From an uncultured Porphyromonadaceae bacterium (GTDB lineage Bacteria; Bacteroidota; Bacteroidia; Bacteroidales; Muribaculaceae), in contig CAMWLX010000003.1 of the NCBI GenBank assembly GCA_947175225.1, forward strand, positions 1 through 33,719: a stretch of DNA of 33,719 nucleotides, in the 5' to 3' direction. Position 1 is the first letter of the stretch; the number at the start of each line of letters is the position of its first letter. The translations under genes and the position numbers were made by a program. Under the pieces are notes generated by a model, which was not told where the DNA came from, did no database searches, and worked only from the letters and a program-made list of their open reading frames with translations. Below are positions 2,291-22,071 of the stretch, piece by piece.

Positions 2291-3727
2291 TCAATTACTA
2301 ATGCCAAGTGCAGAAGCTACATCTCCGGGAAGGAAAGATACGGGCGCATGCCCCAAATCAGGAACATTGTAGGATTTGAGCGTATTGTCGTAGAAAGATG
2401 GGTGTTCCTGTGGCAGAACGAAGGGTTTAGTGACCTGCCCATCCTCCGATACATGGACAAAATATGGCTTCCCATAAAGTCCATCATCCCGCTTGCTGGC
2501 AAAGACAAACCATCGTCCGTCTGCCGACCAACTATGGTACGTGTCGCTCATGGGGCTATTCACGTGTTTCAGAGTGTCAATTTCGCCACTTTTAAGGTCG
2601 AGCATACGAAGGTCTGCCTCGCGATGCCAAATAGGGAAAGTGCCGAAATCCGAGACCGTATAGAGGAGTCGCTTTCCATCCGGCGATACCTGCGGATGAC
2701 TCACACTACTTCCCCATTTCCCGCTGATAATCGTATCTGTAGCCGTCCCGAATCTCCCTTGCGCAGGATCAAAATCTATGCGGCAAAGGCTATAGAAAAG
2801 ACTGTCAAGCCGTGATGGACGTGCCTGTCCTTCTGCCACACAATAGTAAATGCTTTTGCCGTCGGCAGAGAATGTAGGGAATGTCTCAAGGCGAGTGGAA
2901 TCGGCAAGCAATGGGCTGCGAAGCTCCTCTCCCCTCTCAAGATCATAGACATATATATCCGACTTCGTATCGAAAACCTCAAGCCGTTTGTCGGGCCGGG
3001 AATGAAATGCCGGAATGATGGCATTTGAAGAGAATACGATATAGCGTCCCGATGGGTCAAACTGAGCATAGATCGGACCTGACACCATATCGGGTGTCTT
3101 GGCATCAATCTTGCGCAACTTGCCTCCCTCATTAAGAATCATTCCTCCTCCTTCGCCACGCACATAGAAAAATGAAAGGTCGTCGCGTCCCGGGGCATGC
3201 GTATGGCAGTTCATGCAACGGTTGCCAACTGCATTATAATCGCATACCACACGCTCTGAGAAATTCTCCACATTCCTTTCCATTATCTGCAGACGAGAAA
3301 AGACCTCATAATCGGGTTCGATGAGCCGATAAGTCAAATATGAGTCGAGTTTATCGCCGGAAACAGAGATGTCAAATGGGCGATATTGTATCCATTTTCC
3401 GTCCTTAAGTGCGGTGACAGTGACCGAAATATTCTTTCCTGTAGCCTTTTCTGTCAGTTTTTTCCAATCCTTGATATTGAATATTGCCTCATTACCTTTC
3501 CTATGAGATTTTATCTCGAAATCTCCTGCCGAGGCTGTTACATACAGAGCCTCGCAACTGTCGCGCAGCAAGAAATTCAGAGGTGCAATGTTCGACGGAA
3601 TTGTCACACCGACATAATCAGGATATATATTCGGGACATTATCACTTTCCTGCACATTCACAGGAGAAGGAGCACACCCTACTAATAAGCAAACCAACAA
3701 TAAAATTAAATTCAAATATCTCATCAT
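2291..3727 (-). CDS. Heme-c (CxxCH) TolB/PD40-like propeller lipoprotein, module 3
   Basis: 478 aa; lipobox LLVGC; FPDY-type VTIPxxIAPLNF domain; CMNCH at 3203-3217; SxDGKxxxY propeller repeats; paralogous to 5286-6758 and 8609-10120. Confidence 0.85.
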   Translation of the reverse strand: MMRYLNLILLLVCLLVGCAPSPVNVQESDNVPNIYPDYVGVTIPSNIAPLNFLLRDSCEALYVTASAGDFEIKSHRKGNEAIFNIKDWKKLTEKATGKNISVTVTALKDGKWIQYRPFDISVSGDKLDSYLTYRLIEPDYEVFSRLQIMERNVENFSERVVCDYNAVGNRCMNCHTHAPGRDDLSFFYVRGEGGGMILNEGGKLRKIDAKTPDMVSGPIYAQFDPSGRYIVFSSNAIIPAFHSRPDKRLEVFDTKSDIYVYDLERGEELRSPLLADSTRLETFPTFSADGKSIYYCVAEGQARPSRLDSLFYSLCRIDFDPAQGRFGTATDTIISGKWGSSVSHPQVSPDGKRLLYTVSDFGTFPIWHREADLRMLDLKSGEIDTLKHVNSPMSDTYHSWSADGRWFVFASKRDDGLYGKPYFVHVSEDGQVTKPFVLPQEHPSFYDNTLKSYNVPDLGHAPVSFLPGDVASALGISN

Positions 3728-5289
3728 TCCTTGTCAAAATAATACCAATAAGTGCCGCGGAAAGTAGGATCTCCTCTCCGGTTGCTGTATTGATTGAATA
3801 ATTGCAATTGGCTCTCAGTCTTTATATACCGTTCCCATTCACCTTGCGGCGCATCAGTGCCGGCAAGATATATCATCAAGGCTTGCTGATATAAATCTTT
3901 GTATCGAGGTTTCACCCGCTCCATGCAATATGTGTCATAATCCATCTTAAAGGTATCCATATCCTTCAGCAAAAGATCGGTGCAAAGCAAATAGTCAAGA
4001 GCCACTGTGTTACGTGGATTAGACTCAAGAAGCTCGAGAATAATGTTGCGGCAATTGTCGCCAAGGCGAATATTGTCCTTATCGTTTGAACAGGCACGTC
4101 TACGCAAAATATCCCTCTCAACGTCAGAAGTAATTGATCCTGGAGTGTGACGTTTGCTCCAGTCAGAATATGCATGAGTGCGGTCGAGTATACGCAGATA
4201 TTTTAGAGCCGCCGCCGTGTCGCCACTCACAAGATTGATCTCAGCAAGACGTTGCATCATACGCACATTACGGTTGCGCGGCGAAAATACGTTGCGCATC
4301 ATAGCTGCACGTTCGGCATAAGTCATATCCCCCAGTTCATAGTATAGATCATTCATCATGTTGATAATCGTAGGATGAGATTTCTCCCCTATTGTTGTCA
4401 GCGTGCCGAGGCTCTTTACGGGGTATTTAAGCAAATTATCAGCCAGCGAATCTTGCACCGCGCTGGAGAGATAATAATAGAAAGCTGTGACATCATCGGG
4501 ATTATCATCGTCTTTAGCAAGCTGCTTCACAAGATCAAAATCTTGATTATAGAATGCATCAGAAATGGCAAGTCGACGCTCATATTTCATCTGCGGAAGT
4601 TCCGGCTTCGCCAAACCCGGATAAAGAACAGCATCTGCATACGGCAACGCATATGCTTTGCAAAGAATAGCCGGGAGACCCAAACCTATGAGAAGAGCCA
4701 ACACTGCGGCGATCCAAGCCTTACGATCTTGCTTTGATACACATCGTTTGATAGCAAAAAGAATTATTATCAACGCTGTCAACAAAGCTCCCAACCCGAA
4801 TGCCCAATATGAGAGAGCCACTAATATAGGGGAAAGGTCAATCTGGACACGCTCCATCCAACTCAACTTAAACTCCGACAATCCCAACACTATTCCCCCG
4901 GCCACACAAAGGAAGAATGACAACCGGGTGGAAGCTGCCATGGAGCATCCAATCAGAACGACTGCAACAAGGAAAGTCAGCACCCGGCCGATAAGCTTAG
5001 GGAGCAGATGCAAAGACACTTTAGCAAATCCTGCCACACAAAAAGCAATGGAGAGCGTAAGGATGATAGCTCCTATCCACGGATTATGATAAAACTGGGT
5101 GAGCCAGTCGCCGGCAAGGCAACCAAGCCATCCAGGCTTGTCAAAGTATATAGAAATCCAATCCGGACTATTCAGAAATATCTGATTTTGCTCTTGCCAT
5201 AGGATGTGCCCGGAATAGCAAAGGGCATACCATATTGTAAGGCCTATGCAGCAAATGAGCGAAATGGATATGAGTACGTATTTTTTCAT
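3724..5289 (-). CDS. Polytopic inner-membrane protein with C-terminal helical/TPR-like domain (DUF6057-like), module 3
   Basis: 521 aa; multiple hydrophobic segments then soluble helical region; 4-nt overlap with downstream lipoprotein start; similar to 6825-8612 and 10113-11885. Confidence 0.75.
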   Translation of the reverse strand: MKKYVLISISLICCIGLTIWYALCYSGHILWQEQNQIFLNSPDWISIYFDKPGWLGCLAGDWLTQFYHNPWIGAIILTLSIAFCVAGFAKVSLHLLPKLIGRVLTFLVAVVLIGCSMAASTRLSFFLCVAGGIVLGLSEFKLSWMERVQIDLSPILVALSYWAFGLGALLTALIIILFAIKRCVSKQDRKAWIAAVLALLIGLGLPAILCKAYALPYADAVLYPGLAKPELPQMKYERRLAISDAFYNQDFDLVKQLAKDDDNPDDVTAFYYYLSSAVQDSLADNLLKYPVKSLGTLTTIGEKSHPTIINMMNDLYYELGDMTYAERAAMMRNVFSPRNRNVRMMQRLAEINLVSGDTAAALKYLRILDRTHAYSDWSKRHTPGSITSDVERDILRRRACSNDKDNIRLGDNCRNIILELLESNPRNTVALDYLLCTDLLLKDMDTFKMDYDTYCMERVKPRYKDLYQQALMIYLAGTDAPQGEWERYIKTESQLQLFNQYSNRRGDPTFRGTYWYYFDKE

Positions 5290-6758
5290 TTTCTTACTGA
5301 CACGTTGGTGAGTTCACCTTTTCTTACCATTGAACGGACGCGATGCATATCAAGGCTGATCTTTTCTGCTATGAAATCCGGGGCATTGAAGGAATGCAAT
5401 GCCTCATCATAGTATTTCCGAGGGTTGCGCTGAGGAAGTAGAAATGGCTTCGTAGCCTTTCCGTCATTCCCTATGCAAGAAAGATACAGATTCCCATACA
5501 TTCCGTCGCGTCGCTTACTGTTGAAGAGAAACCATCCTCCTCCCGGACTCCAATTATGGTAGGCGTCGCTCCACTCGCTATTTGCCTCGTCAAGAGGGCG
5601 CGATTCCCCCGTAGACAAATCCATGATCCATAGGTCGGCATCAGCATGATGGATTGGCGACGTTCCATGCTCGGTAAGATTATACATCAGATACCTGCCA
5701 TCATAAGAGGGTCTTGGAAGACTCACGCTCCTGTCTATATCGGAAGCACAGACGAGTGTGTCAATTTTAGATCCAAGTTTGCCTTCCTTAGCATCAAAAT
5801 CTATACAGCAAAGGCTATATTTAAGCCTGTTGTAGCCTCCCGGCATATCTACAGAATCAGCCAAGCAGAAGTAAATTTTCTTCCCGTCGGGAGAGAAAGC
5901 CGGAGTAGTCTCGCAGCGCGGAGTAGCCACGATAGGCGACGTAATGAGTTGGTCAGTCTCAGTATCGAGCACAATGAGGTCGGAAAAGACATCCCATGGT
6001 TCGATATTATGCTCTTTGTCGAGATAAAAGTTCTGGACAATCTTGTTGACGGAGTAAGCCACGTATCTTCCATCCGGATGCCAATAGCCGTAAGTTGCAT
6101 TTCCCTGGGTCTCAGGAGCCTTAGTGTTCAGATATTCGATTTTATCACCCCACTTGAGCAGCGTGCCGCCGTTTTTGCCACGTATATGTATTGAGAATTG
6201 GTCGGCACGTCCACGGTTGGCATAATGGCAGTTCATACATTTTCCTTCTATGGCTGTCTCTTCAAGCACCGGAGTCTCTTCAAAAGATGACAAATCTCTC
6301 TGATAAATGCCAATCTTGCTGAAAGTCTGATAACCGGGTGCTATCTTGCGGTATACCACTCCATAATCCTCCAAAGGCTTATCACTTACATGCATCACAA
6401 AGGGGGCGTAACGATGCCATTTCCCATCCTTATCTTTGACACTTACCTCAAACGTAAGGATTCCCCCCACGTTTCTTCCAGTGAGCTCGTGCCACTTCTT
6501 TTCATCAAATTCCGCAGTTTTGCCTGAAGTCTCCATCCCACCCTCTTTAGAGCCTTTCACTTTGACATAAACTTGCTCAGCATCAGAATAAGTGACATCG
6601 AAATTCATAGGGGCGATCTGCGCAGGTATTGTCACATCTGTATAGTCAGGAAATATATCCGGAAGTTCTGAAGATGGAGCCATTTCCGGAGGTCTACCAC
6701 CGGAGCAAGCAGCAAGCATCACGCATGCAAATATCAATAAATATTTATAATATTTCAT
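5286..6758 (-). CDS. Heme-c (CxxCH) TolB/PD40-like propeller lipoprotein, module 2
   Basis: 490 aa; lipobox MLAACS; IFPDYTDVTIPAQIAPMNF; CMNCH at 6225-6239; FSPDGKKIYF repeats. Confidence 0.85.
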   Translation of the reverse strand: MKYYKYLLIFACVMLAACSGGRPPEMAPSSELPDIFPDYTDVTIPAQIAPMNFDVTYSDAEQVYVKVKGSKEGGMETSGKTAEFDEKKWHELTGRNVGGILTFEVSVKDKDGKWHRYAPFVMHVSDKPLEDYGVVYRKIAPGYQTFSKIGIYQRDLSSFEETPVLEETAIEGKCMNCHYANRGRADQFSIHIRGKNGGTLLKWGDKIEYLNTKAPETQGNATYGYWHPDGRYVAYSVNKIVQNFYLDKEHNIEPWDVFSDLIVLDTETDQLITSPIVATPRCETTPAFSPDGKKIYFCLADSVDMPGGYNRLKYSLCCIDFDAKEGKLGSKIDTLVCASDIDRSVSLPRPSYDGRYLMYNLTEHGTSPIHHADADLWIMDLSTGESRPLDEANSEWSDAYHNWSPGGGWFLFNSKRRDGMYGNLYLSCIGNDGKATKPFLLPQRNPRKYYDEALHSFNAPDFIAEKISLDMHRVRSMVRKGELTNVSVRK

Positions 6759-6798
6759 ATTTCAATTTATAAATTCAATTCATTCTTCCCATAAACCT

Positions 6799-6821
6799 CA
6801 ACTTTCGCGTTGCGAAAGTTG
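6799..6821. other. Perfect intercistronic hairpin without U-tract
   Basis: CAACTTTCGC-gtt-GCGAAAGTTG, 10-bp stem, in the only sizeable gap of the six-gene array. Confidence 0.8.
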
Positions 6822-6824
6822 AAT

Positions 6825-8612
6825 TTATTCATGAGTGGATTGGTATTCGGGTGAGCCGGATTTTTGTTGTTGACTATTGGAATAGCGCAGGAAATATACT
6901 CCATACGAGCCCGGAGCGGCATTCTGCCATGCTCGGGGATTATTTTTATTTGTCATCGCAGCTTTGGCAAGGGCAGCAGTTGCTTGCTTAACCTCCGGAC
7001 TTATCGGGAACTGCAGTCCATCAAAAGAGGGATGGCTGAAAGTCCAATACATGGCAATAGCCTCTTGCACATGGCGAGGTAAAGTGGGCAGCCCGAAAGT
7101 GTCTGCATAGTAATTGCAGACGCCGGCAAGTGTGGCAAGGTCTCCTTTCAGCATAGTAGTGGCACAAAAATAGTCCCACGCAAGCTTATTGTTACCGCTC
7201 CCATCAAGCACAAGCATGGCGAGTATCTTATCAAGCTGTGAATGGTAATAAAAACCATCTTTCGTAAAACTGTTGCGACGCAGCGGACCATATATAGGGT
7301 GCGCGTCAACAGCATTATCGTTGCCAAGAAGTGTTTCCGCCTGCCGAACCCAATCCTTGTAGAAAAGAGTGTTGCGGAGGAATCCTATATATTTGGCTGC
7401 CACTTCATAATTCCCATTTATTATCATGCATTCAGCTAATCGCTTCATAAAGCGTCCGCTCTTGCGGTCGTTCATTATAGCCTCCTGCAAGTCGAATGTC
7501 GTGGAGAAGGCTATGTTGGTAAGACCTAAGCGGAAAAGTGCCTCGGCTGTAATTAGCTGGGATGTATTGTCGAGTTTATAGTCTCCTATCAATCCCTCTA
7601 CCCCATTCTGATCAAACTGAAACATAGACTCAGTCAGTTGCCCGGTCATCCCCAATGCAAGATTCAGTGCTTGAAGTGAGAAGGTATCAGTTGGTCGTTC
7701 TTTCTTTGCCCTTTCAATTATTTCCTGCCAGCGACCTTGCCTGACGAGCGATTCATAAGCAAGCATACGGCTTTTATCGGCATTGAAAGAAGCCGGCACA
7801 TATATCACCACAAAAACCGTCACTCCTGCTGCTATTGCATAAGAAATTATTGGCTTCACATTTTTCTTTATCAGAGTGACAAGTGGCACTGCTGCCATCA
7901 CTCCCCAGATAATAAAGTAGATTGTCGGATAAGTTTCAGGAATCCTGTAATAATTCATGCCTAATGTGAAGCTGCCCAAAGGATACTGCTCAAAAAACAA
8001 TCTATGGATTGTCCACACGAAAAGCAAAGAAACCAACAAGAGGAAGATTACCGACCTATGGCGTAATATACCCCATGCTGATATAAAGAGTATTGCAAAT
8101 GGTCCGGCAAGCCAATACAGCAGTATAAATCCGGCTATCAATAGAACTGAATCAGCGGTCGTCGATCCTGTATTGATGAAGGTGAATCCAAAAGTAAACA
8201 CTGAGGTCAACATCATGGCTACCGCAAAGGATAAAAGAGTGTTCTCATCTCCCAAGGCTCCAATGAAAAGCACTGATGGAAGAGCAGCCAAGATATACGC
8301 TACATCCGGTGTGGCACACCGACGGCACGCCAGTCCTAAAAATATCTGTGACAATGTCAGCACAAGGGAGGCAAGCAGAGAGCCGTAAAGAGGTATGTAG
8401 TAGAACTGTACTACAAATTCAGAAATATAGTCGGCCAATCCTCCCGGCAATGATATGGCGTGAGTGAAATAGCCACTCGTAAACTGAAACAGCTGATACT
8501 GTTCATGATATAGAAGATACTGTGGAACTTTTAGCCACAGGAACAAGAACATACCTATAAACAAGATGGCCGACCATATGCAACCGAATAAGATTTTCCG
8601 TATCATTTTCAT
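6825..8612 (-). CDS. Polytopic inner-membrane protein with C-terminal helical/TPR-like domain (DUF6057-like), module 2
   Basis: 595 aa; many TM segments; NLALGMTGQLTESMFQFDQNGVEGLI shared with the module 1 paralog. Confidence 0.77.
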   Translation of the reverse strand: MKMIRKILFGCIWSAILFIGMFLFLWLKVPQYLLYHEQYQLFQFTSGYFTHAISLPGGLADYISEFVVQFYYIPLYGSLLASLVLTLSQIFLGLACRRCATPDVAYILAALPSVLFIGALGDENTLLSFAVAMMLTSVFTFGFTFINTGSTTADSVLLIAGFILLYWLAGPFAILFISAWGILRHRSVIFLLLVSLLFVWTIHRLFFEQYPLGSFTLGMNYYRIPETYPTIYFIIWGVMAAVPLVTLIKKNVKPIISYAIAAGVTVFVVIYVPASFNADKSRMLAYESLVRQGRWQEIIERAKKERPTDTFSLQALNLALGMTGQLTESMFQFDQNGVEGLIGDYKLDNTSQLITAEALFRLGLTNIAFSTTFDLQEAIMNDRKSGRFMKRLAECMIINGNYEVAAKYIGFLRNTLFYKDWVRQAETLLGNDNAVDAHPIYGPLRRNSFTKDGFYYHSQLDKILAMLVLDGSGNNKLAWDYFCATTMLKGDLATLAGVCNYYADTFGLPTLPRHVQEAIAMYWTFSHPSFDGLQFPISPEVKQATAALAKAAMTNKNNPRAWQNAAPGSYGVYFLRYSNSQQQKSGSPEYQSTHE

Positions 8613-10120
8613 CTAACTTTTGTGGGTATGCGCTCGTCGGAGAGGATTGCGTCTACAGCAGCCCGCGTGTCAAATTCGACTTTTTCTTTTGTGAAGTCGG
8701 GAGTATTGAAAGAGAAAAGAGATTGCGTATAATACTCTTCCGGATTCTTCTGTGGCAAGAGGAAAGGTTTTGAGAATCTGCCCTTATCGTCAATGCTCGT
8801 TAGATAGAGATTGGAATATAGTCCATCTCCTCGGCGTGAGGTGAAGACTACCCAACGGCTATTGTCGCTCCAATTGTGGAAACTGTCGGCTTCATCACTG
8901 TTGATTTCTTCCACAGGGCGCGCCTCTCCCGTTGCAAGGTCGAGAAGCCACTGGTCAGATTCCTTATGCCAGATGCTGAAATAGCCATAGTCGCTGAGCG
9001 TAAAAAGCATATATTTCCCATCATATGATGGGCGCGGCCAAGTGACACTTTTGTCCATAGCTACAGCATTGAAAAGAGTATCTACCTGCGATCCGAATCG
9101 TCCGGTGTTTGGATCGAAAGCAATTCGGCAAAGGTTGTATTTCTCATCTTTATGTTCCAATGGGTAATTCTTTTGAAGGCATGTGGTGAAGTAGAGCCAT
9201 TTGCCGTCGGGGGAGAATGACGGGGTGTTTTCCGACCATGCCTTAGTATTCAGAAGAGTATCACGCAATATTTCATTCTTCTCGGTGTCATAGACTATCA
9301 CGTCTGACGACAGGTCGAACACTTCCAATCGCTTGTGTCCTGAGATATGGAATCCTTGACGGGTTTGGTTGGTTGAGAATGTGCAGTAGCGTCCTTCCGG
9401 ATGCCAGTATGGATAGACCATCGCGCCTCCGAGAGTATCATTTGAAGCCTTTAGCCACGTGCACTCCCCTTTCTTTGAGATCATCGTAGCCCCATGTTCA
9501 CCTCGCACATGGAATACGAAGTCTTTCGGATTTGTTCGGTTCGGGGTATGGCAATTATAGCACTGTCCATCGGTCATAGTGTTTTCGATAATTGCATCTT
9601 CAGCGAAATTGCTAAGATTTCGCTGATAGATTCCCATTTTGCTATACACTTCATAACCGGGAGCAATACGGCGATAAGTCAATCCATATTCATCCAAAGG
9701 GTATTGGCTCACATTGACAGGGAAATCTTCATATTGAATCCATTTGCCCTCAATTTTAGCGCATACTGATACTGTCAAAGTCTTTCCCTTGTTTTCTTCA
9801 ATAAGATTATGCCATTTGTCTATGTCGAAGTCAGCATATTTGCCATTGGAATGTAATTCCCCCCCATTTTCGCCCTTGACAGTCACATCTACACGCTCCG
9901 CACCTTCGACAGAGAAGTTGAGTGGAGCTATCTCAGCAGGGATCGTCACTCCAACATAATCAGGAAATATCGTGGGCAGGAAATTGACTTTCTTTACATC
10001 AGTTGGCTTTTCAACACAGCCCGTTAAAACAAACAACAGACAACATACAAAGCACTGCAAAGCATTGATTATCCTCTGTGTGCTCTCTGTGTGAGACTTA
10101 TATTTCATAGGATTATTCAT
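8609..10120 (-). CDS. Heme-c (CxxCH) TolB/PD40-like propeller lipoprotein, module 1
   Basis: 503 aa; lipobox VLTGC; IFPDYVGVTIPAEIAPLNF; CYNCH at 9548-9562; propeller repeats; 4-nt overlap with the downstream membrane gene. Confidence 0.85.
   Translation of the reverse strand: MNNPMKYKSHTESTQRIINALQCFVCCLLFVLTGCVEKPTDVKKVNFLPTIFPDYVGVTIPAEIAPLNFSVEGAERVDVTVKGENGGELHSNGKYADFDIDKWHNLIEENKGKTLTVSVCAKIEGKWIQYEDFPVNVSQYPLDEYGLTYRRIAPGYEVYSKMGIYQRNLSNFAEDAIIENTMTDGQCYNCHTPNRTNPKDFVFHVRGEHGATMISKKGECTWLKASNDTLGGAMVYPYWHPEGRYCTFSTNQTRQGFHISGHKRLEVFDLSSDVIVYDTEKNEILRDTLLNTKAWSENTPSFSPDGKWLYFTTCLQKNYPLEHKDEKYNLCRIAFDPNTGRFGSQVDTLFNAVAMDKSVTWPRPSYDGKYMLFTLSDYGYFSIWHKESDQWLLDLATGEARPVEEINSDEADSFHNWSDNSRWVVFTSRRGDGLYSNLYLTSIDDKGRFSKPFLLPQKNPEEYYTQSLFSFNTPDFTKEKVEFDTRAAVDAILSDERIPTKVR
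10073..10095. repeat. CCTCTGTGTGC-TCTCTGTGTGAG repeat inside signal-peptide coding region
   Basis: 22/23 identical to 33484-33506. Confidence 0.85.
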
Positions 10121-11885
10121 TGGAAATCAAATAATGGAAAAGAGTATGGCGGTGGGGCTCTATCAGCTCAGGATTTTTTGAGGTCCAGGCTTGTGCAAAG
10201 CCACGTAGCGATTGCTCCACCATCGGCGAGACCATATTTTTAGGGATTGGTTGCCCATTTTTCATAGAAATGAATGCCAGTGCCTGCTGTGCCAAAAGAG
10301 GATTATATTGCGGAAGCGATTCAGCTACAACACCCATATACTGCACAAACTTATCAAGATCACGCTGAAGAAGAGGATACAGAATCAGATATTGCCGGGC
10401 AAGATCATTGCCCGGGTCTTTGATGAAGAGCTGCCCCAATGTCTTGTCGAGTTCTGCTTCGCTGAAGAGATAGTCTTCGTCTATCATCCTTTGGCGAAGC
10501 TGACAATATATCGGGGGCGCTATTGCAGTGAGATCTTTTATCTGTTCAAGATTACGCTGCGCCCATTTCCTATAGAAGATAGTGTTTTCAAGCATCCGAA
10601 GGTATTTTTCCGCGAGCTTGTATTCTCCGCGGATCATCGCGATCTCGGCAAGTCGCTTTACTGCACGGCTGCTCTTATTATAGTTAGGAATTGCCTCCAT
10701 CCCTTCATAATAGAAGCGTTGGGCACTATTGATCATACCGAGTTGGAAGAATATTTCTGCGGTGGTCCAAGATGAGATAGCCTCTTTAGAAAAGGGAGGG
10801 ATTAATCCTTCAGTGCCGTTCTGATAATAGTCAAAGGCACGGGAGTCGAGCTGTCCGGTCATTCCTAATGCAAGGTTGGTCGCGCTGACGCTCAGAGGGA
10901 GATCCGGATTGTGGGCATCTGAGTATCTGAGTATTCCTTCCCAATCGTTGGCGCGGACCATATAGTCATAGTCGATCAAGCGGTAGGTAGTCTTGTCGTA
11001 AGATTTGGAATAACGAATTACTGCAGGAACCACCACAAATAAAACAAGGATAGGGAGGATTCTTTTCGTAGAAGCATTGCCACGCGCCATAAGATGCGCT
11101 GCGATTGGGACTATTACGCATAATGCCTCGAATATCAATTGGTAGCTATTTAAGACATCCGGAGTCAGTAGATACCCTATGCCAATCAATTGATATGAGA
11201 ATGGATAAGTGATAAAAATTGACCAAAGGTAGATATTAGCTATAATAGCCAATATAGCAACAGTAGCTACAATAGCTTTTTTACCGACAGATATTTGTCG
11301 GCTAGAGCACGTGAATGCGATGATGAGAAGGGTGAAGACTATCGTGATAGGACCTGCCACCCAATATAGCAGCGAGGTAGCCACTATCACCCGAAGGCAT
11401 TTTTCTGCACTCGGATAGTCATAATCTGTAGAGACATAGAGATATGTACCGAAAGTGACTATCAGAAGGGCTGTGATAAAACCGAGCGTCACATCCTGAT
11501 TGCCAAAAAATCGCCAAAGGAATGTGAGAGGAATGAGAGAGAGCAAGAGATTGTTTGTCTTCGAGTGTCCTGAAGTAAATTTATTGCAAATCACGTAGCA
11601 AGACAATCCAAACATGACCATCAGCAGACTCATCACAGCCCCCCCTATCCAATAATTATTGAAAAATTGAGTCAGGAATTCCCCTATGTATATAGCAATT
11701 CCGGCAGGACGCAAGGCGAATCCGGCAAAGTATGTGCCGGTGGTCTGAAACAGCTGCATTTCCTCCCGGTAGCCGAGAGCTGCCCGATACGGGAATGCCC
11801 AGAATAAGTATAGGGCGGCGGCAATCACCGCAAAGGCTACCGCGACAATATATTTTAAAGATGACTTTTGTATTTCTTTCGTCAT
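10113..11885 (-). CDS. Polytopic inner-membrane protein with C-terminal helical/TPR-like domain (DUF6057-like), module 1
   Basis: 590 aa; multiple TM segments; NLALGMTGQLDSRAFDYYQNGTEGLI; 8-nt overlap with downstream lipoprotein start. Confidence 0.77.
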   Translation of the reverse strand: MTKEIQKSSLKYIVAVAFAVIAAALYLFWAFPYRAALGYREEMQLFQTTGTYFAGFALRPAGIAIYIGEFLTQFFNNYWIGGAVMSLLMVMFGLSCYVICNKFTSGHSKTNNLLLSLIPLTFLWRFFGNQDVTLGFITALLIVTFGTYLYVSTDYDYPSAEKCLRVIVATSLLYWVAGPITIVFTLLIIAFTCSSRQISVGKKAIVATVAILAIIANIYLWSIFITYPFSYQLIGIGYLLTPDVLNSYQLIFEALCVIVPIAAHLMARGNASTKRILPILVLFVVVPAVIRYSKSYDKTTYRLIDYDYMVRANDWEGILRYSDAHNPDLPLSVSATNLALGMTGQLDSRAFDYYQNGTEGLIPPFSKEAISSWTTAEIFFQLGMINSAQRFYYEGMEAIPNYNKSSRAVKRLAEIAMIRGEYKLAEKYLRMLENTIFYRKWAQRNLEQIKDLTAIAPPIYCQLRQRMIDEDYLFSEAELDKTLGQLFIKDPGNDLARQYLILYPLLQRDLDKFVQYMGVVAESLPQYNPLLAQQALAFISMKNGQPIPKNMVSPMVEQSLRGFAQAWTSKNPELIEPHRHTLFHYLISNE

Positions 11886-11984: not shown

Positions 11985-12578
11985 TTATTCCGGATCGCCG
12001 TAGCGCTGGCGAAGGAGGTCGTAGGCTGTGCCGGGGCCTGTGGTGCGCATCAGGTCGTGGATAAGCTTGAGGTAGCTTTCGTTGAAGGTGCGGAGAGAGT
12101 CGGTGAGGGCGTTGGCATATACCGTGTCCCCTTGCTCTCGGAGATACTTGATGTGCTGTGATTGGTTCCACTGCACTTTGTCATGGTCCTGCTTTAAGAC
12201 TTTCCACGCCTGGAGAAGATCATTTTGAGGCGTCCCTTTGCCACTTGACATGCTATCGATCACTACAGTTATCTCCCCCGGCTCAGTCACTATAAGTAGA
12301 TCCTGAGTGCCATAACGGACACGCTTGTCGACAGTCACTCGCGCAAGAAACTCCCCCTTGTGTCCACGAAACTCGAATTTCCCATTTTTGATGACAGTTG
12401 AGTCCACTCCAATGCTATCCTCATAAGCCTTTGTGCCATACGGCACCAAAAAGACCCTCTCCCCATCGAGGCGAGACTGAGAAGTGGAGCCCTTGATTAT
12501 GTATTCATCCTTATGATCAGTGCAGCAGACCACTCCCGCACAGACAACTACCAATAATAAATAAACTAATTTTCTCAT
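11985..12578 (-). CDS. DUF4369-like lipoprotein without thioredoxin domain
   Basis: 197 aa; lipobox-like VVCC; YIIKGSTS...DGERVFL...VIKNGKFEFRG resembles the DUF4369 domain usually N-terminal to TlpA/AhpC-type thioredoxins. Confidence 0.65.
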   Translation of the reverse strand: MRKLVYLLLVVVCAGVVCCTDHKDEYIIKGSTSQSRLDGERVFLVPYGTKAYEDSIGVDSTVIKNGKFEFRGHKGEFLARVTVDKRVRYGTQDLLIVTEPGEITVVIDSMSSGKGTPQNDLLQAWKVLKQDHDKVQWNQSQHIKYLREQGDTVYANALTDSLRTFNESYLKLIHDLMRTTGPGTAYDLLRQRYGDPE

Positions 12579-12646: not shown

Positions 12647-14143
12647 TTACTTACCAAACGACCACCATGTGCATTCGCTCCAACCGCCTGTGCCGGGAGC
12701 AGCATAGATTAGAACCATTGCATCTGTTCCAAGATAGCCGATTTCAAAGCTTGTTGGCATCTCTCCACCAGTATTGATGGCGAACGGCCAAAGGATAGCA
12801 CCTGCAGAAGTATTGAGTGTTCCTACACTGAAATTATCCGGATTTGGAGTCATGTCAAACGAGAATGAACCTGAACGAAGTTGGTTGCCATCCTTGCCAA
12901 ATACTGTAACGGATGCTTCGTCTTCGTTGAAGACCATCTTAGACGCCATATATTCCTCACCTGCTACATAAGCATCGCCGGCATGCTGCATCTGGCCTTC
13001 AAATTTGTCTGCGCATTCGCCATCATTCGGACCGCAACCCCACCAAGCGCCGTTGATGGCTCCTGTACCGTCTTGAGCTCCTGCCAGGTAGCCGCCGTTG
13101 CCCCATACAGCACCGCCGTTTACTTCTGTCGGTCTCCAGTGCCAGTCATGGGATGCAAGGATACCGCCGGCATCCTCATCGCTCATGAACGACCACCATG
13201 TGCACTCGCTCCAGCCTCCTGTGCCGGGTGCCGCATAGATGAGCACCATACGGGTTACATCAAGATACCCAATTTCAAATGCTGTAGGTTGCTCGCCCCC
13301 TGTATTGATGGCGAATGGCCATAGAATTGCACCTTCTGAAGTTTCGAGAGTTCCTCTTGAGAATGTATCAGCATTTGTAATCTCGTTATTGTTGTAGTCC
13401 TTGATAGCGAAAGAGCCTTCGTTGATCTTAACGCCTTCATTGCTGTAGGCTGTCAACGAACCATCCTCGTTGAACTCCATGTATGAGAGAGCGTAGCATT
13501 CACCTTTGATATCAGGCCAGCGAGAGCCTGCATGTTGAGTCTGGCCTTCGAATGTGTCGCCACAGTCACCGTCAATCGGACCGCAACCCCACCAAGCTCC
13601 GCTGATATTGTCACTGCCGTCTTGCTCGCCTGCGAGATAACCTCCGTTACCCCAAACAGCACCGCCGTTGGCACTTGTAGGCATCCATTTCCATTTCTTG
13701 ACACCGCTGTTTGACACAAGAACTTTTACAGCCGGGTCAAGAGCCTGAGCTACATTAAGTGTGAACTGCTTCTCAGCCACTACCTCTGTGCCGTCGGCAT
13801 TAAGATAGGAGAAGTATACCGACTGCAATGGATCGCTACCGCGAGATGGCATGTAGTAAACGATGCCACCTGCTCTACCATAAGAGAGAGTCTTCTTATC
13901 GCCATTCTTCATGTAGTAGACATTGACAGCAGAAACTCCGGGGAAGTTATACTGAATATAGTTGCCGGTCTCAGACGGAACATATTTCCCATCGACCAAA
14001 TCAAACTGACTGAAAGTAGCGCCATTCATAAGGGATTCCGAAGTCATGGTAGCAGACACGAAATCGCCTTCTGCCTTCTGGGGATCGCAAGAAGTAAGGA
14101 AAACCCCACCGGTCAAGGCTAATATAATTAGAGTCTTTTTCAT
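12647..14143 (-). CDS. PUL-type surface lipoprotein (SusE/F position) with tandem Trp/Gly/Cys-rich domain
   Basis: 498 aa; lipobox FLTSC; two copies of NGGAVWGNGGYLAGxQDG...GAWWGCGPxDGxCxDxFEGQxQHAG...GTGGWSECTWWSF. Confidence 0.8.
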   Translation of the reverse strand: MKKTLIILALTGGVFLTSCDPQKAEGDFVSATMTSESLMNGATFSQFDLVDGKYVPSETGNYIQYNFPGVSAVNVYYMKNGDKKTLSYGRAGGIVYYMPSRGSDPLQSVYFSYLNADGTEVVAEKQFTLNVAQALDPAVKVLVSNSGVKKWKWMPTSANGGAVWGNGGYLAGEQDGSDNISGAWWGCGPIDGDCGDTFEGQTQHAGSRWPDIKGECYALSYMEFNEDGSLTAYSNEGVKINEGSFAIKDYNNNEITNADTFSRGTLETSEGAILWPFAINTGGEQPTAFEIGYLDVTRMVLIYAAPGTGGWSECTWWSFMSDEDAGGILASHDWHWRPTEVNGGAVWGNGGYLAGAQDGTGAINGAWWGCGPNDGECADKFEGQMQHAGDAYVAGEEYMASKMVFNEDEASVTVFGKDGNQLRSGSFSFDMTPNPDNFSVGTLNTSAGAILWPFAINTGGEMPTSFEIGYLGTDAMVLIYAAPGTGGWSECTWWSFGK

Positions 14144-14163: not shown

Positions 14164-16005
14164 TTAGTAAACCGGTGTTCCTGACATGTTCCAATTCTGT
14201 GAATCGGAACCCCAACCCGGATTTTGCTTCAGCACCTCAGGATCAGCAATGATGTTGATCTGTGAGGTTGGTATCTGCAGGAAGCCGTTGGTCTCTGCAT
14301 AACGCTGAGCCCATGAGGAGGATGCGTGCTTCATGACTGTCCATCGACCTGTATAGTTGACAGCCGAACCGTTCTGCTTTTCAAGAGCTATCGCAGCAAG
14401 ACAGTTAGTGCCCCCGTCAATGCCCGACCAACGACGCAAGTCGTTGAAACGGATACCCTCGCCGTAGAGCTCCCAGCGACGTTCGTTCTTGATGTTATCC
14501 CATGAATAACCGGTTTTAGCCACGCCGGCACGCTCCTGAACTCGATTCATCATTGCAGGATCTCCAGACAACTCAGTGTGCATAAGCATCACGTCAGAAA
14601 GACGAAGAAGAATTATGTCTGTATAATGGTCACCCTGCATGGAGTTTCCATTCTGGTTGGTTGCCGTGCTGTACTTGGAACGGTAAACACCCCACCATGT
14701 GTAAGCATCTGCCTGTGCGTCAAATGTTGATTCCGCACATGTGACAGACATCCACTTTTTATTGTATTTACCGGTTTCTTCAGAGCAAGAGGTAGTGTAG
14801 GCAAAGTATTGAAGTTCGGTATCGCAATCAAGCACAGTCGCTTTCTTACGAGGATCGCTTGCCGGCCATTCGTTGACAGAATTCATATTGAAAACGCCCT
14901 GTCCCCAACCTTGACCGAAAGGCAAGGTCTCCATTGTGCCATTGGCCTTTCCGGCAGCGTCTTCGTCACAACGCAATCCGTTATAAAGAGCTGTCTGATT
15001 GACGAAGCCCATCTGGATAGTACCCTGATAAGAAGCCGCATTTGTAAACTGCACTTGGAAAAGCTGTTCTTTATTGCCGTTACCTGCCCAGAACTTTCCT
15101 TCTGCTGCAAGATCCTTCGTATATTCGTAGTCCGGAGCACTGAGTTCGTTGGTGTATTGCCAAAGCAGACGGAAGTCAGGGATAAGTTCAGCACCGGAAT
15201 TATTGATACAGTCGGCAAGATAATCGATCACCTGCTGTTTGCTCAGCGGACCATTGACACCTTCCTGCTCGGGAAGCTCTACGTCAGCGAGATTTGCTGT
15301 TGCAAGCTCACCGGCCTTATTGTAGAAGCCCTGATAGAACATATAGGCACGTGCGAGATATCCTTCTGCTGAGCCCTTCATGGCATGGCCGTCGCCCCAT
15401 GCGGTTGCGCCATGGCTCATAAGATTGGATGCAGAAACAAAGTCGGCTAAAATGTGGGGATAAATAATATCCTTTGCACTGACTTGCGGACACGGATCGG
15501 GAGCCGCAGATGCCCAGTAAGCCGGAATATCGCCCCAGAATTGGCAACCCCATAGATAGAAGAGACCACGCATAAAGTAGGCTTCGCCAAGGAGCTGGTT
15601 GCGTGTGGTTTCATTGCCGGTCCAGTCAAAAGCATCTACAGAGTAGATAATAGCGTTTGCTCGTGCTATCGCTACATATACGGCGTGCCATGCTTTATCA
15701 TAAAGTGATTCGCTATTTGTCATTAAGTGACCGATAGCATGACATTCGACGTCGCCGGTACCTCCGGCGCCGTTAGCATCATCAGACATAATGTCCCAAA
15801 CAAGCCATGGGGTCTGCAATGGAGCCTGATTTAGCTGATTCATCACTCCATAGAGTGCAGCCAATTCCTTATTTAGGTCTGAAGGCTGAGCCGGATAGTT
15901 GCTCGAATTGGCCTGTGTATAGTTGGTCGAGTCAAGGAAGTCCTCGCATGATGTCATTGTGAGTATCCCGACTGCGGCTAATGCAATCAAAAGATATTTT
16001 TTCAT
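14164..16005 (-). CDS. susD-like: SusD-family (RagB/SusD) outer-membrane lipoprotein
   Basis: 613 aa; lipobox TMTSC; LGEAYFMRGLFYLWGCQFWGDIP; RRWELYGEGIRFNDLRRW. Confidence 0.93.
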   Translation of the reverse strand: MKKYLLIALAAVGILTMTSCEDFLDSTNYTQANSSNYPAQPSDLNKELAALYGVMNQLNQAPLQTPWLVWDIMSDDANGAGGTGDVECHAIGHLMTNSESLYDKAWHAVYVAIARANAIIYSVDAFDWTGNETTRNQLLGEAYFMRGLFYLWGCQFWGDIPAYWASAAPDPCPQVSAKDIIYPHILADFVSASNLMSHGATAWGDGHAMKGSAEGYLARAYMFYQGFYNKAGELATANLADVELPEQEGVNGPLSKQQVIDYLADCINNSGAELIPDFRLLWQYTNELSAPDYEYTKDLAAEGKFWAGNGNKEQLFQVQFTNAASYQGTIQMGFVNQTALYNGLRCDEDAAGKANGTMETLPFGQGWGQGVFNMNSVNEWPASDPRKKATVLDCDTELQYFAYTTSCSEETGKYNKKWMSVTCAESTFDAQADAYTWWGVYRSKYSTATNQNGNSMQGDHYTDIILLRLSDVMLMHTELSGDPAMMNRVQERAGVAKTGYSWDNIKNERRWELYGEGIRFNDLRRWSGIDGGTNCLAAIALEKQNGSAVNYTGRWTVMKHASSSWAQRYAETNGFLQIPTSQINIIADPEVLKQNPGWGSDSQNWNMSGTPVY

Positions 16006-16035: not shown

Positions 16036-19000
16036 TTAAAATTTAACGGTTACACCCAACACGAATGAACGAGCTGAAGGATAAAGACCGGTGTCGATGC
16101 CACGTGCCCAATCATTTCCGGTGCCACCATTAGAACCGATTTCAGGGTCAACACCTGTATACTTGGTGATGGTGAAGAGATTCTGAAGCTGAGCGTAGAG
16201 ACGAAGCTGCTGGAACGGAGTCTTGAACTGGCTTGCGAAGTCATAGCCGACAGTGATGTTCTGTAGCTTGAAATAGTCAGCGTTCTGCATATAGTACGTA
16301 GATACCCACTGATTGTTTTCGCTGCCGACTACAAGACGAGGAACACTATTGCTTGTCCCTTCGCCATGCCAGCGGTTAAGGATTTCTGCTGTATAATTTA
16401 CGTATGGGTTAGCAAGAAGGGCGGTGCGGTAGCACTGCATGGCCTGCATGCCGAAAGCTCCTGACCCGGCTGCGCTGAAGTCGAAGCCTTTGTAGGAGAA
16501 GCCAAGGTTGATACCGAGTGTCCAGTCCGGATTCGGATCGCCGATCTCATGGCGGTCTTCGTCGAGAGAAATCATACCGTCGCCATTGTAGTCATCCCAG
16601 ATAAAGTCACCTGGCTGTGCTGTTGCAAGAACTGCCTGACCTGCAGCACGTGCGGCTTCAATCTGTTCCTGTGTCTGCCAGATACCGCTGTGGCTCATAC
16701 CGCTGAAATAACCGATAGGATGTCCTACCTCTACGAGAGATACGTAAGAAGAGTTCTGGAAGAGTGCACTGCCTACGTTGTCGCCGATCTTGCCGGAAGC
16801 AGTAGCAAGGCGAGTAACCTTATTCTTATTGTAAGCAGCGTTGACATTGACATGATACAGAAAATCTCCACCTATATTGTCGCTCCAAGAAAGCGCAAGT
16901 TCGATACCTTCGTTCTTCACGTCACCGCCATTGATCATGGCAGGTTTTTCATAACCGAGGATATCATTGAGAGGTGCCTCAACAAGCCAGTCTTTAGTAG
17001 TCTTGCGATACCAGTCGAAAGTGACTGCCAGACGGCTCTGGAGGAAGCGGGCATCGAAGCCAAGGTCAAGCTGCTCGGAAGTTTCCCAAGTGACATCTTC
17101 ATTAGGAACATTTATTGCGTATGCACCTTCCGTGTAATAACCTTCCACTGTAGGAAGCATTCCGCTGTTGAACTTGTAACCATAGTCTTTGTAGTCTGTC
17201 GGAGAGAAACCTATATTGGAAAGATATTTGAAGTTTTCAATATCGCAGTTACCGTTCTGGCCCCAGCTTGCACGGATCTTGAAGAAGTCCATTACATTGT
17301 AGGCACTTTCCATAAACTTCTCGTTGGTAAGCACCCAACCGACAGATACAGAAGGATAAGTATGCCAACGATGTCCACGCGCGAAGTTGTTGGAGCCGTC
17401 ACGGCGCACATTTACAGTAAGAAGATACTTCTCGTCATAGTTGTAGTTGAGTCGTCCGAAGAATGAAGCGATTCTGCCTTGCATCGGATTGTCATAACCA
17501 CTAAAGCCCGTCATATTATCCTTATTCATGTTAGACGGAATAGTGAAATCCCAACCGTTGAGGACAAGAGAATTAAGATTTTCGAGAGAAGAACTGAACG
17601 CCATCCCCAATCCTGTCGACCAATTTGTCTTCTCAATTGACTGGCCGATCATCACATCAATATTGTTTTTGCCGAAAGTCGGGAGCACATAAGAGAGTGT
17701 ATTATCAAATAATATGCTCGAGCTTTGGTATGCATTTTGGCTAAGTCCATAGTTTGCACTTGAACCGGTAGAGCTTGCAGAATATGGCTTTGATGTGCTT
17801 CTATAGTTGCTTCCGCTATAACCCGTATTGATCTGTCCGCGATATTTGAGGTTCTTGATTGGCTCAATAATCCAGTAGAATGTAGCTCCAACTCCGAAAT
17901 CGCGATTGCGGTTAAGCGAATTATACATACCATTTAAAAATCCTTCATAAGGATTATTAAAGATCATAGTACTCCAACCTTTACCATCACGCTCATAATT
18001 AGTAGGGGTTCCATCCTCATTAAATGCGGGCACAAGAGGCGAGTTGGCATAGACCGGCTGCATGATGTTCCAGTAGCCGTTGCCCTCAGCGAGATCATGG
18101 CTTGAGTGATACCAATATGACAAGTTTTCACCAAGAGTAATGATGTTATGGTCGTTGCCTTTTAGAAGGACATGTTCTGAATTGATGCGACCACCATAAC
18201 GCTTGTAGTCGGAAGCATTGTCACCGCCAAGGATACCTTCCTGATCGCTGTAGTTGACTGAGATAGAGAATTTGCTGCGATCGGTGCCCCCTGTAAGTGT
18301 TACGGCGTGGCTCTGTTGGAATGCATTCTTATTGCGGTATAGACCAAACCAATCTTCACCCTGCCAGCCATTGTTGACTTTGTCAAGTATTGCTTGAGGT
18401 ACAAGTGTGTTCCAGTTAGTGGCTGTTCCATAAGTGTTGTAGTTGGTCTCATTGACTATCTGCATATACTGCTGAGCGTTGAGTGAGCCCGGCTGACGGT
18501 AAGGGTTAGCCCATCCCACGAAACCGTCGTATGTAACAGATACTTTTCCTTCCTTACCCTGCTTTGTGGTGACGAGGATTACACCGTTGGCTGCACGCGA
18601 ACCGAAGATAGCTGCCGAAGCGGCATCCTTCAATACGTCGATGCTTTCGATGTCGTTAGGATTAATACCATTCAGGCCATCGTTGGCAGTGCCGGAGACG
18701 ATTCCGTCAATGACGAGAAGAGGAGAAGACTGCCCGATGGTACCCATACCACGGATATTCACCTTAAAGCCCTTGCCCGGCTGGGCAGAAGACTGAGTGA
18801 TCTGTACGCCCGGGGCGGTAGACTGCAAAGCTGTGAGGGCATTGGAAGTATTCATGGAGGCTATCTGGTCTCCACTTACCTGCAATGTAGCACCTGTCAC
18901 GAGTTTCTTCTTCTGAGTACCATAACCTACTACGACGAGTTCGTCAAGATTGCTGTTGTTTTCTTGAAGCTCTACATCAAGTATCCAGCTCCTTCCGACC

Positions 19001-19296
19001 TTCACTTCTGAAGGTATATACCCTACGTAGCTAACTACGAGGATATCGCCTGGTTTGGCACTAATAGAATAGTTACCGTCGAGGTCGGTAGCTGTACCAG
19101 TCTGAGACCCTTTGATCATTACGGTTGCACCGATGAGTGGCTCGCCGTTCGGGTCAGTGACTGTTCCTCGAATCTTTCCGTCAGCCGGTGCTTGCGCCTG
19201 AGGGGCAGGAGCAGCATACGTCTGAGGCACACTACATGCAAGCGCAGATAAGACTGCGCCTGTCAAGAGTACTGCATGTTTCTTTTTTAGGTTCAT
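16036..19296 (-). CDS. susC-like: SusC-family TonB-dependent transporter with N-terminal CarboxypepD_reg-like domain
   Basis: 1086 aa; GTVTDPNGEPLIGATVMIKG; DELVVVGYGTQKKKLVTGA; SIDVLKDAASAAIFGSRAANGVILVTTKQG; C-terminal beta strand ending in F. Confidence 0.97.
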   Translation of the reverse strand: MNLKKKHAVLLTGAVLSALACSVPQTYAAPAPQAQAPADGKIRGTVTDPNGEPLIGATVMIKGSQTGTATDLDGNYSISAKPGDILVVSYVGYIPSEVKVGRSWILDVELQENNSNLDELVVVGYGTQKKKLVTGATLQVSGDQIASMNTSNALTALQSTAPGVQITQSSAQPGKGFKVNIRGMGTIGQSSPLLVIDGIVSGTANDGLNGINPNDIESIDVLKDAASAAIFGSRAANGVILVTTKQGKEGKVSVTYDGFVGWANPYRQPGSLNAQQYMQIVNETNYNTYGTATNWNTLVPQAILDKVNNGWQGEDWFGLYRNKNAFQQSHAVTLTGGTDRSKFSISVNYSDQEGILGGDNASDYKRYGGRINSEHVLLKGNDHNIITLGENLSYWYHSSHDLAEGNGYWNIMQPVYANSPLVPAFNEDGTPTNYERDGKGWSTMIFNNPYEGFLNGMYNSLNRNRDFGVGATFYWIIEPIKNLKYRGQINTGYSGSNYRSTSKPYSASSTGSSANYGLSQNAYQSSSILFDNTLSYVLPTFGKNNIDVMIGQSIEKTNWSTGLGMAFSSSLENLNSLVLNGWDFTIPSNMNKDNMTGFSGYDNPMQGRIASFFGRLNYNYDEKYLLTVNVRRDGSNNFARGHRWHTYPSVSVGWVLTNEKFMESAYNVMDFFKIRASWGQNGNCDIENFKYLSNIGFSPTDYKDYGYKFNSGMLPTVEGYYTEGAYAINVPNEDVTWETSEQLDLGFDARFLQSRLAVTFDWYRKTTKDWLVEAPLNDILGYEKPAMINGGDVKNEGIELALSWSDNIGGDFLYHVNVNAAYNKNKVTRLATASGKIGDNVGSALFQNSSYVSLVEVGHPIGYFSGMSHSGIWQTQEQIEAARAAGQAVLATAQPGDFIWDDYNGDGMISLDEDRHEIGDPNPDWTLGINLGFSYKGFDFSAAGSGAFGMQAMQCYRTALLANPYVNYTAEILNRWHGEGTSNSVPRLVVGSENNQWVSTYYMQNADYFKLQNITVGYDFASQFKTPFQQLRLYAQLQNLFTITKYTGVDPEIGSNGGTGNDWARGIDTGLYPSARSFVLGVTVKF

Positions 19297-20426: not shown

Positions 20427-20458
20427 TTTGTATATATGGAGGTTTTTGAGTACTTTTG
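20427..20458 (+). promoter_or_regulatory. Bacteroides-type promoter of cobUTS
   Basis: TTTG (20427-20430), N20, TACTTTTG (20451-20458). Confidence 0.8.
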
Positions 20459-20474
20459 CAAAAATTTGAAAATT

Positions 20475-21029
20475 ATGGAGACAAGAAAAGCAATTATGCA
20501 AAACGATGACATAAAGGGGCGGCTAATAATGGTCACTGGTGGCCAGCGTAGTGGCAAGAGTGTCTTTGCAGAAAATCTTGCTTTGCAGATGTCTCCCCAT
20601 CCTACTTATTTGGCTACTGCCCGTGTGATGGATGAAGAGATGGAGCGTCGAGTGGCACTCCATAAGGAACGGCGAAAAGACGTATGGCGAAATATCGAGT
20701 CTCCATTATATGTTGAAGACATTGATTTCTCGGAAAATGAAACCGTCCTTATCGACTGCCTGACACTATGGGCTACAAACTGGTTTTTTGAAAAAAATGA
20801 GAATACTGAAAAAGCTCTTGTCTCCCTTAAAAGTCAGATTGAGCTGCTGCTCAAAAACAACTGCAATTTCATCATTGTGACCAACGAGGTAGGGCTCGGA
20901 GGTGTGAGTCCTAACAAAATGCAGCGGCAATTTGCAGATATGCAAGGGGCAATCAACCAGTATGTAGCTTCATTAGCGCAAGAAGTATATCTAATCATAT
21001 CCGGTATTCCGGTAAAAATCAAAGGATGA
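20475..21029 (+). CDS. cobU: Adenosylcobinamide kinase / adenosylcobinamide-phosphate guanylyltransferase
   Basis: [16 protein letters not shown]-loop, [24 protein letters not shown]; start moved from 20436 because the promoter overlaps the longer ORF. Confidence 0.93.
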
Positions 21030-21033
21030 ATAT

Positions 21034-22071
21034 ATGAAAAAATTTAATATACAGCCGCTTGACCGGTCAATTGAATCAGAAATAGTCAATAAAATCGACA
21101 ATCTCACAAAGCCGAAAGGTGCTTTGGGACGTCTGGAAGATTTAGCTTTGCAGATAAGCCTTATACAACATACTTTAAGCCCTGCACTTCACAATCCTCA
21201 CAATGTATTGTTTGCAGCAGACCATGGCATTCTTGACGAAGGAGTGAGCGTGTCGCCTAAAGAAGTGACATGGCAACAACTTAGCCACTTCTCTAAAGGT
21301 GGTGCCGGGATAAACTTCCTGTGTGAACAGCATGGTTTCAAACTTGTGCTTGTGGATGCCGGAGTCGACTATGACATTCCCTCCGGACATGGCATCATCG
21401 ATATGAAAATACGAAAAGCAACCCGTAATTTCCTTTACAGACCGGCTATGACAGCAGATGAACTTGACCTTTGTATAGATCGAGGAGCAAAGATTGTAAG
21501 GCGCATTCATGCAGAAGGTTGCAACGTGATAAGCTTCGGAGAAATGGGCAGTGGAAACACTTCTCCATCTGCCGTTTGGATGCACTTGTTCACCGGCATC
21601 GACCTGAAAAAATGTATCGGGGCGGGAGCAGGACTCGACAATGAGGGTATCCGACATAAATATGAGGTCCTGTATAAAGCAGTTGCAAACTATCAAGGTG
21701 ATGACACTCCCGAATCAAAGATTGCATGGTTTGGAGGTTACGAAATGGCTATGGCTCTCGGCGGAATGTTGCAGGCTGCTGAATTAGGCATGATTATTAT
21801 TGTGGATGGTTTTATCATGACCAGTGTCATTCTCGCTGCTTCGCAACTTTACCCGGATGTATTGCAATATGCTGTATTTGGACATCAAGGCGATGAATCC
21901 GGACATAAGCTCATGCTTGAGGCTATGGGAACAAAGCCAATCCTTCACCTTAGCCTTAGGCTTGGAGAGGGATCTGGAGCAGTATGTGCCTATCCCATAT
22001 TGGAATCTGCCGTAAGGATGATCAATCGCATGGATAGTTTCCAATCAGTAAACGTCACAAAATACTTCTGA
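21034..22071 (+). CDS. cobT: Nicotinate-nucleotide--dimethylbenzimidazole phosphoribosyltransferase
   Basis: 345 aa; [60 protein letters not shown]. Confidence 0.96.

Follow-up and report, generated by a model that had tools for sequence, protein, structure and literature searches.

A membrane protein of the DUF6057 family (M) and a putative heme-c lipoprotein (L) are encoded by a real, ancient and so far undescribed two-gene module of gut and rumen bacteria. In the window, by which we mean the whole stretch of 33,719 nucleotides analysed here, the module is present three times in succession. Our analysis supports the obligate pairing of M and L, their co-duplication, a dependence on heme c, a defined topology and a characteristic locus context. 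The obligate L partner, the topology and the link to heme c are new beyond the Pfam entry PF19529, which gives DUF6057 no function. No function for DUF6057 was found in the open-access literature searched either, where no paper mentions the family, in keeping with the initial annotation, which knew of none for the pair.

Gene order and neighbours of the M-L pairs

The window belongs to an assembly of 3.77 Mb that is 80% complete. Its open reading frames include six co-directional genes on the minus strand, which form three M-L pairs. In the order of transcription these are M1 (11885-10113, 590 aa), L1 (10120-8609, 503 aa), M2 (8612-6825, 595 aa), L2 (6758-5286, 490 aa), M3 (5289-3724, 521 aa) and L3 (3727-2291, 478 aa). 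The genes overlap by 8 nt at M1-L1 and by 4 nt at L1-M2, L2-M3 and M3-L3, and M2-L2 is the sole junction with a gap (66 nt). The open reading frames thus agree with the initial annotation, which described six alternating minus-strand genes with four overlaps of 4-8 nt and a lone 66-nt gap.

M1, M2 and M3 all match the full-length DUF6057 profile, with scores of 349, 429 and 439 bits against a cut-off of 29.8 (PF19529 E-values for M1, M2 and M3 of 4.4e-131, 5e-128 and 6.2e-104, respectively). The lipoproteins match PD40 with E-values of 2.4e-10 (L1), 4.1e-14 (L2) and 6.4e-17 (L3). Each has exactly one C-x-N-C-H, bearing out the earlier count of one CxxCH per lipoprotein: CYNCH at residues 187-191 of L1 (9548..9562), CMNCH at residues 174-178 of L2 (6225..6239) and CMNCH at residues 171-175 of L3 (3203..3217), all on the minus strand and all putative heme-c attachment sites. 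Two motifs that had been described as shared hold in part. LALGMTGQL is found in M1 and M2 and is absent from M3, and the N-terminal FPDY..IAPLNF of the lipoproteins is mostly kept, except that L3 has YPDY and L2 has IAPMNF.

The paralogues are well diverged, with about 40-44% identity to L1 among the L proteins and 19-28% among the M proteins. Each of the three paralogue classes has orthologues in related genomes (loci L005, L006, L007, L034 and L154), so the copy number of three is not due to chance. The nearest relatives by M2 are Porphyromonadaceae/Muribaculaceae MAGs, which makes Muribaculaceae the probable family of the window. A fourth, diverged pair is found in L-M order elsewhere in the same genome (contig C132). 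A thioredoxin-like neighbour of this pair was considered as a ResA-type thiol reductase and rejected, as its sequence has no CxxC active site.

Upstream of the six genes and on the same strand are four further genes. The first encodes a DUF4369 lipoprotein (11985..12578, PF14289 E = 4.3e-11), a type often found directly upstream of M-L units (neighbour cluster 2, 22 loci); a role for it as a ResA-type thiol reductase was also considered and rejected. It is followed by an unclassified lipoprotein with two similar halves (12647..14143, Pfam giving no match above cut-off; neighbour cluster 3, 18 loci), whose family mostly has the acidic +2..+6 region typical of surface lipoproteins and which many related loci also have at this position, flanked by their SusD and DUF4369 genes. 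Beyond these lie a SusD/RagB-type lipoprotein (14164..16005, PF07980 E = 9.8e-23) and a SusC/RagA-type TonB-dependent transporter (16036..19296, TIGR04056 E = 4.5e-260). Downstream, on the opposite strand, is a prolyl oligopeptidase gene. The window also holds cobU-cobT-cobS cobalamin assembly genes (20436-22823), which adjoin the SusCD/M-L locus, and a hemerythrin-like domain fused to a LuxR-type HTH (30824-31777), a possible iron- or oxygen-responsive regulator.

Across genomes, the neighbours of M-L include SusC, SusD, glycoside hydrolases (GH2, GH3, GH5, GH10, GH20, GH28, GH43, GH67 and GH97), sialate esterases and HTCS regulators. This association with glycan utilization was unforeseen in the initial annotation, as were the periplasm-facing L and the weak GT-C resemblance of M described below. 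A gene of cluster 0 or 1 (SusD and SusC) or of cluster 10 or 11 (GH43-lectin and CBM-like proteins) is present in 44 of 94 M-carrying stretches, a raw tally of glycan-locus markers rather than of SusCD pairs and not a measure of enrichment. B. theta BT2259/BT2260 were considered as relatives and dropped, being TonB-receptor genes, and the published MAFF locus has no bearing on M or L. In four genomes of one genus, L is followed by a protein of about 1000 aa that combines a response-regulator-like part with a PPDK ATP-binding domain (for example L140:1850-4849).

In several loci (L138, L157 and L167), HTCS regulators are direct neighbours of M-L. Such proximity would fit a sensor, in which the L propeller and its heme detect a ligand, a gas or the redox state of the periplasm, and the signal is relayed by M or by the neighbouring HTCS to regulate the glycan locus. 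The unit in the window has no adjacent HTCS, however, and M has no cytoplasmic signalling domain and a C-terminus that is predicted to be periplasmic. We regard sensing as very unlikely.

Co-occurrence and co-divergence of M and L

A DUF6057 profile search over 148 Bacteroidales genomes identified M, with scores over the cut-off, in 16. The same genomes carry L, which is full-length or matches the L profile strongly, the weakest of these matches being a fragment in G134 (E = 1e-90); a handful of other propeller proteins also match the L profile weakly (E about 1e-30). The culturable isolate Prevotella lacticifex JCM 34664 is among the carriers of M-L (locus L012). Within the family of the window, M is found in 29 of 197 genomes and L in all 29 of those. 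When split matches are merged by hand, the copy numbers of M and L are equal in 41 of the 44 distinct M-carrying genomes, the exceptions being G262 (two M, one L), G094 (an extra M fragment) and G134 (fragments).

The genes are also physically close. M is directly followed by L on the same strand in 117 pairs; the median distance is -4 nt, and the genes of 108 pairs lie within 60 nt of each other. Another 11 adjacent pairs are arranged differently. No genome in the order-level sample has a full-length L without M, and single L genes that are not next to M do exist.

We then compared the M and L trees. For 66 pairs from 27 multi-pair loci, the tree distances of M and L correlate with r = 0.944, while swapping partners inside each locus reduces the correlation to 0.167 +/- 0.085 (maximum 0.52 in 2000 swaps). 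Nonetheless, physical linkage or co-inheritance alone could yield congruent trees. The six genomes with non-adjacent M and L bear on this point. In five of them (G048, G026, G168, G246 and G315), the unlinked M and L have the same nearest neighbours. This match is expected from common descent alone in the one-copy genomes G168, G246 and G315, and it is informative in G048, with three copies, and G026, with two. In the sixth genome, G097, the classes mismatch and the unlinked L has lost CxNCH.

The strict pairing and the three paralogous units proposed in the initial annotation are therefore borne out by co-occurrence (16 of 16 and 29 of 29 genomes), by the mirror tree and by the class-matched unlinked partners. 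The M-L unit is ancient and obligate and, because the two genes almost never occur apart, M and L probably form one working complex. Since the unit duplicates as a whole, one locus could carry several specialised complexes beside a single SusCD pair.

Predicted location of L and probable attachment of heme c

The AF2 model of L1 (pLDDT 91) consists of a signal helix, a compact beta domain (about 69-152), which we read as Ig-like, and a PD40 propeller with CxNCH at its start. Its PDB matches have low TM-scores and are propellers, including those of S9 peptidases and of cd1 nitrite reductase. L has the PD40 repeats and propeller fold of the TolB/PD40 and DPP-IV/S9 propellers but differs from them by the additional Ig-like N-domain, the lipid anchor and CxNCH. 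Two named propeller proteins were rejected as identities for L: TolB, for which the scores reach at most 42 bits against an equivalog cut-off of 343, and PorE, for which they lie far below the cut-offs.

A lipobox is present in L. At least two acids at positions +2..+6 after the lipid cysteine are found in 4% of L proteins compared to 84% of SusD. Because L does not have this acidic stretch, it is predicted to face the periplasm. A role as a surface glycan-binding protein was rejected, as L shows no surface-export signal.

The CxNCH motif is kept in 128 of the 129 L proteins longer than 400 aa and is fully invariant in L alignment A3. It is lost in the L of locus L029 (7679-8971), the exception among the 129, and in the unlinked L of G097. 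Since two L copies have lost the motif, heme is not always needed. The copies without CxNCH at L029:7679-8971 and L179:7065-8459 are possible natural heme-less variants.

A gene for a CcsA-type heme-c synthase is found in all 44 M-carrying genomes, which belong to many families. At the order level, CcsA is present in 16 of 16 genomes with M compared to 19 of 24 (p = 0.065). In the family of the window, it is present in 29 of 29 genomes with M and in 62 of 168 without M (Fisher p = 1e-11, which overstates the evidence since related genomes are treated as independent). The M-positive genomes of this family span nine genera; inside the window's own genus alone, the association has a p value of 0.057. 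NrfA nitrite reductase is found in 2 and MauG-type peroxidase in 1 of the 29 M-carrying genomes of the family, too rarely for these two families to explain CcsA. M-L and CcsA share a stretch in three genomes (G156, G187 and G276). CcsA is paired in many genomes with a RidA/chorismatase-like protein (PF01042), which in others adjoins M-L units (for example L137:6412-7560, L138:5159-6289, L139:16091-17236 and L007:16381-17457).

Based on the conserved CxNCH and on CcsA in every M-carrying genome, L very probably carries covalent heme c, which supports the earlier description of L as a heme-c lipoprotein; this conclusion comes from genomes rather than from chemistry. CxNCH might instead be a zinc or disulfide site, with CcsA co-occurring through shared lineage or lifestyle. 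The sequence-based nature of the heme assignment, the p value in the window's genus and the treatment of related genomes as independent in Fisher's test leave some room for this explanation. The presence of CcsA in 44 of 44 genomes from many families, including nine genera of a single one, and its linkage to M-L in three loci nevertheless make a heme-less reading of the motif highly improbable.

The genome of the window has two CcsA-type genes. One encodes a ResB-CcsA protein in a locus whose gene content resembles that of B. theta BT2473-2482, and the other is next to NrfHA. The former locus (L085:2871-9642, contig C20) encodes a diheme protein, a porin-like protein, a monoheme lipoprotein, a RidA-like protein and ResB-CcsA. 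In B. theta, BT2473-2482 is reported to be induced 63-324-fold at low iron (PMC10434189). Such CcsBA-linked cytochrome loci of Bacteroidales, of the BT2473-2482 or the NrfHA type, place CcsA-type heme-c maturation in the same genome as M-L. They differ from M-L, which forms a separate and usually unlinked operon, and L is unlike their di-, mono- and tetraheme cytochromes.

Architecture of M and possible roles of the pair

In the AF2 model of M2 (pLDDT 94, pTM 0.91), nine hydrophobic helices are followed by a C-terminal half that is TPR-like. Lysine and arginine amount to 21-25 per 100 residues in the predicted cytoplasmic loops compared to 0-8 in the periplasmic loops between TM helices, a bias that places the TPR half in the periplasm. 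For M, including M1, we therefore predict a cytoplasmic N-terminus, nine TM helices, and a TPR half and C-terminus in the periplasm. The membrane half matches no Pfam family besides DUF6057 and no PDB structure. A Foldseek search of the M model against the PDB and viral models returned only TPR-like or non-significant matches.

The invariant residues in M alignment A4 are E37, Q40, F42, G170, G363, R387, N475 and Y573. E37, in the loop after TM1 (EL1), is invariant in all 57 aligned M proteins and provides the acidic residue expected at this place in GT-C proteins. In the window it corresponds to E41 of M1 (codon 11763-11765), E37 of M2 (codon 8502-8504) and E33 of M3 (codon 5191-5193). The acidic residue at position 122 is conserved in only 70%, which speaks against a GT-C relationship.

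No His or Cys is highly conserved in the M alignment (best column 53%), and M as a redox protein was rejected on this ground. The same result bears on the electron-transfer machine suggested in the initial annotation, in which the heme of L would shuttle electrons to support a redox reaction of glycan use, either in the periplasm or at the surface. The heme c that L very probably carries speaks for this idea, as does the remote similarity of its propeller to two redox enzymes, cd1 nitrite reductase and thiocyanate dehydrogenase. Nevertheless, the analysis found neither a redox partner in the membrane nor a recurrent quinol or redox enzyme among the scanned neighbours, and NrfA and MauG are rare in the M-carrying genomes of the family. 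The electron-transfer idea is thus weakened, and we consider it quite unlikely.

Next, we compared M with GT-C proteins by profile alignments, using reversed-profile nulls and 42 control membrane proteins. Against 30 Bacteroidales PMT_2 proteins, the M profile scores 33, compared to 13-19 for reversed or CcsA controls involving M and GT-C and 25-26 for self-versus-reversed controls. In subsampling, forward scores are mostly above reversed ones, although one reversed run reached 31. The alignments of subset profiles end in register in 31 of 40 cases, and the best displayed alignment puts E37 of M on the Asp-Glu motif of GT-C EL1. The hhalign probability is at most about 52% in the alignments shown, and the profile-sequence tests, taken together, do not reach significance (p = 0.11 and 0.72). 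No significant sequence homology of M to a GT-C family was found, with none in Pfam at a meaningful E-value and none in the PDB; M has no PMT_2 match, and its own genome has no PMT_2. What M and bacterial PMT_2/GT-C proteins (PF13231) share is a weak in-register alignment of the EL1 acid, a second-loop acid and a G-P after TM5, a similarity that is no more than suggestive of GT-C kinship of the M membrane part.

A further resemblance lies in the overall architecture. The ER O-mannosyltransferases TMTC1-4 combine a GT-C TM part with TPRs and have a cytoplasmic N-terminus, an odd number of TM helices, an acidic motif in EL1, a conserved TM7-TM8 loop and an extracytoplasmic C-terminal TPR region (PMC7801869). 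M is predicted to be like them in each of these features, with its acidic motif in the TM1-TM2 loop. It differs in having 9 rather than 11 TM helices, an E-Q-x-Q rather than a D-D motif in EL1 and no detectable sequence homology in Pfam. TMTC proteins also have no known heme partner.

Alternatively, M-L could be a non-catalytic scaffold, in which M anchors a periplasmic TPR platform and the heme of L is structural or stabilising, and which helps to assemble or position SusCD-type complexes or the envelope. Most near-invariant residues of M lie in the TPR half (G363, R387, N475 and Y573), its TM part has no sequence match to any known enzyme family, and the strong pairing, the proximity to SusCD and the persistence of two heme-less L copies would all fit. 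On the other hand, the loop after TM1 has three invariant polar residues (E37, Q40 and Q69), which suggest that M does more than anchor, and M-L is also found in loci without recognised SusCD. A scaffold is, in our view, somewhat unlikely.

The reading that we favour, tentatively, is that M-L is a periplasmic accessory complex of glycan-utilization loci, in which M has GT-C-like activity and L is a heme-dependent subunit. Each pair would give one obligate envelope complex. M would sit in the inner membrane with its TPR domain in the periplasm, and CcsBA would attach one c-type heme at the CxNCH of L, at the start of the propeller and after the Ig-like domain. We infer that L docks on its own M, most likely via the TPR domain, and likewise a catalytic role of M and a role of the heme. 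M would most likely handle a polyprenyl-linked sugar in the periplasm, in a GT-C-like manner and with a TMTC-like architecture, and its targets may be envelope proteins or glycans of its locus. L may then act as a heme-dependent specificity or redox subunit of M. A more specific version, which we think unlikely as it stands, is a GT-C-like membrane system with a TPR receptor and an obligate heme-c partner, in which sugar transfer in the periplasm is controlled or made possible by covalent heme for individual loci and several cognate pairs work in parallel in one cell.

The glycan-utilization loci of gut and rumen Bacteroidales have been much studied, and an obligate heme-dependent M-L pair attached to them is undescribed in the open-access literature searched. 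For DUF6057, a family of unknown function, the pair provides a testable role. Gut Bacteroidales are commonly considered to require an external supply of heme. A part for heme c in glycan use would tie the supply of iron and heme to the use of diet.
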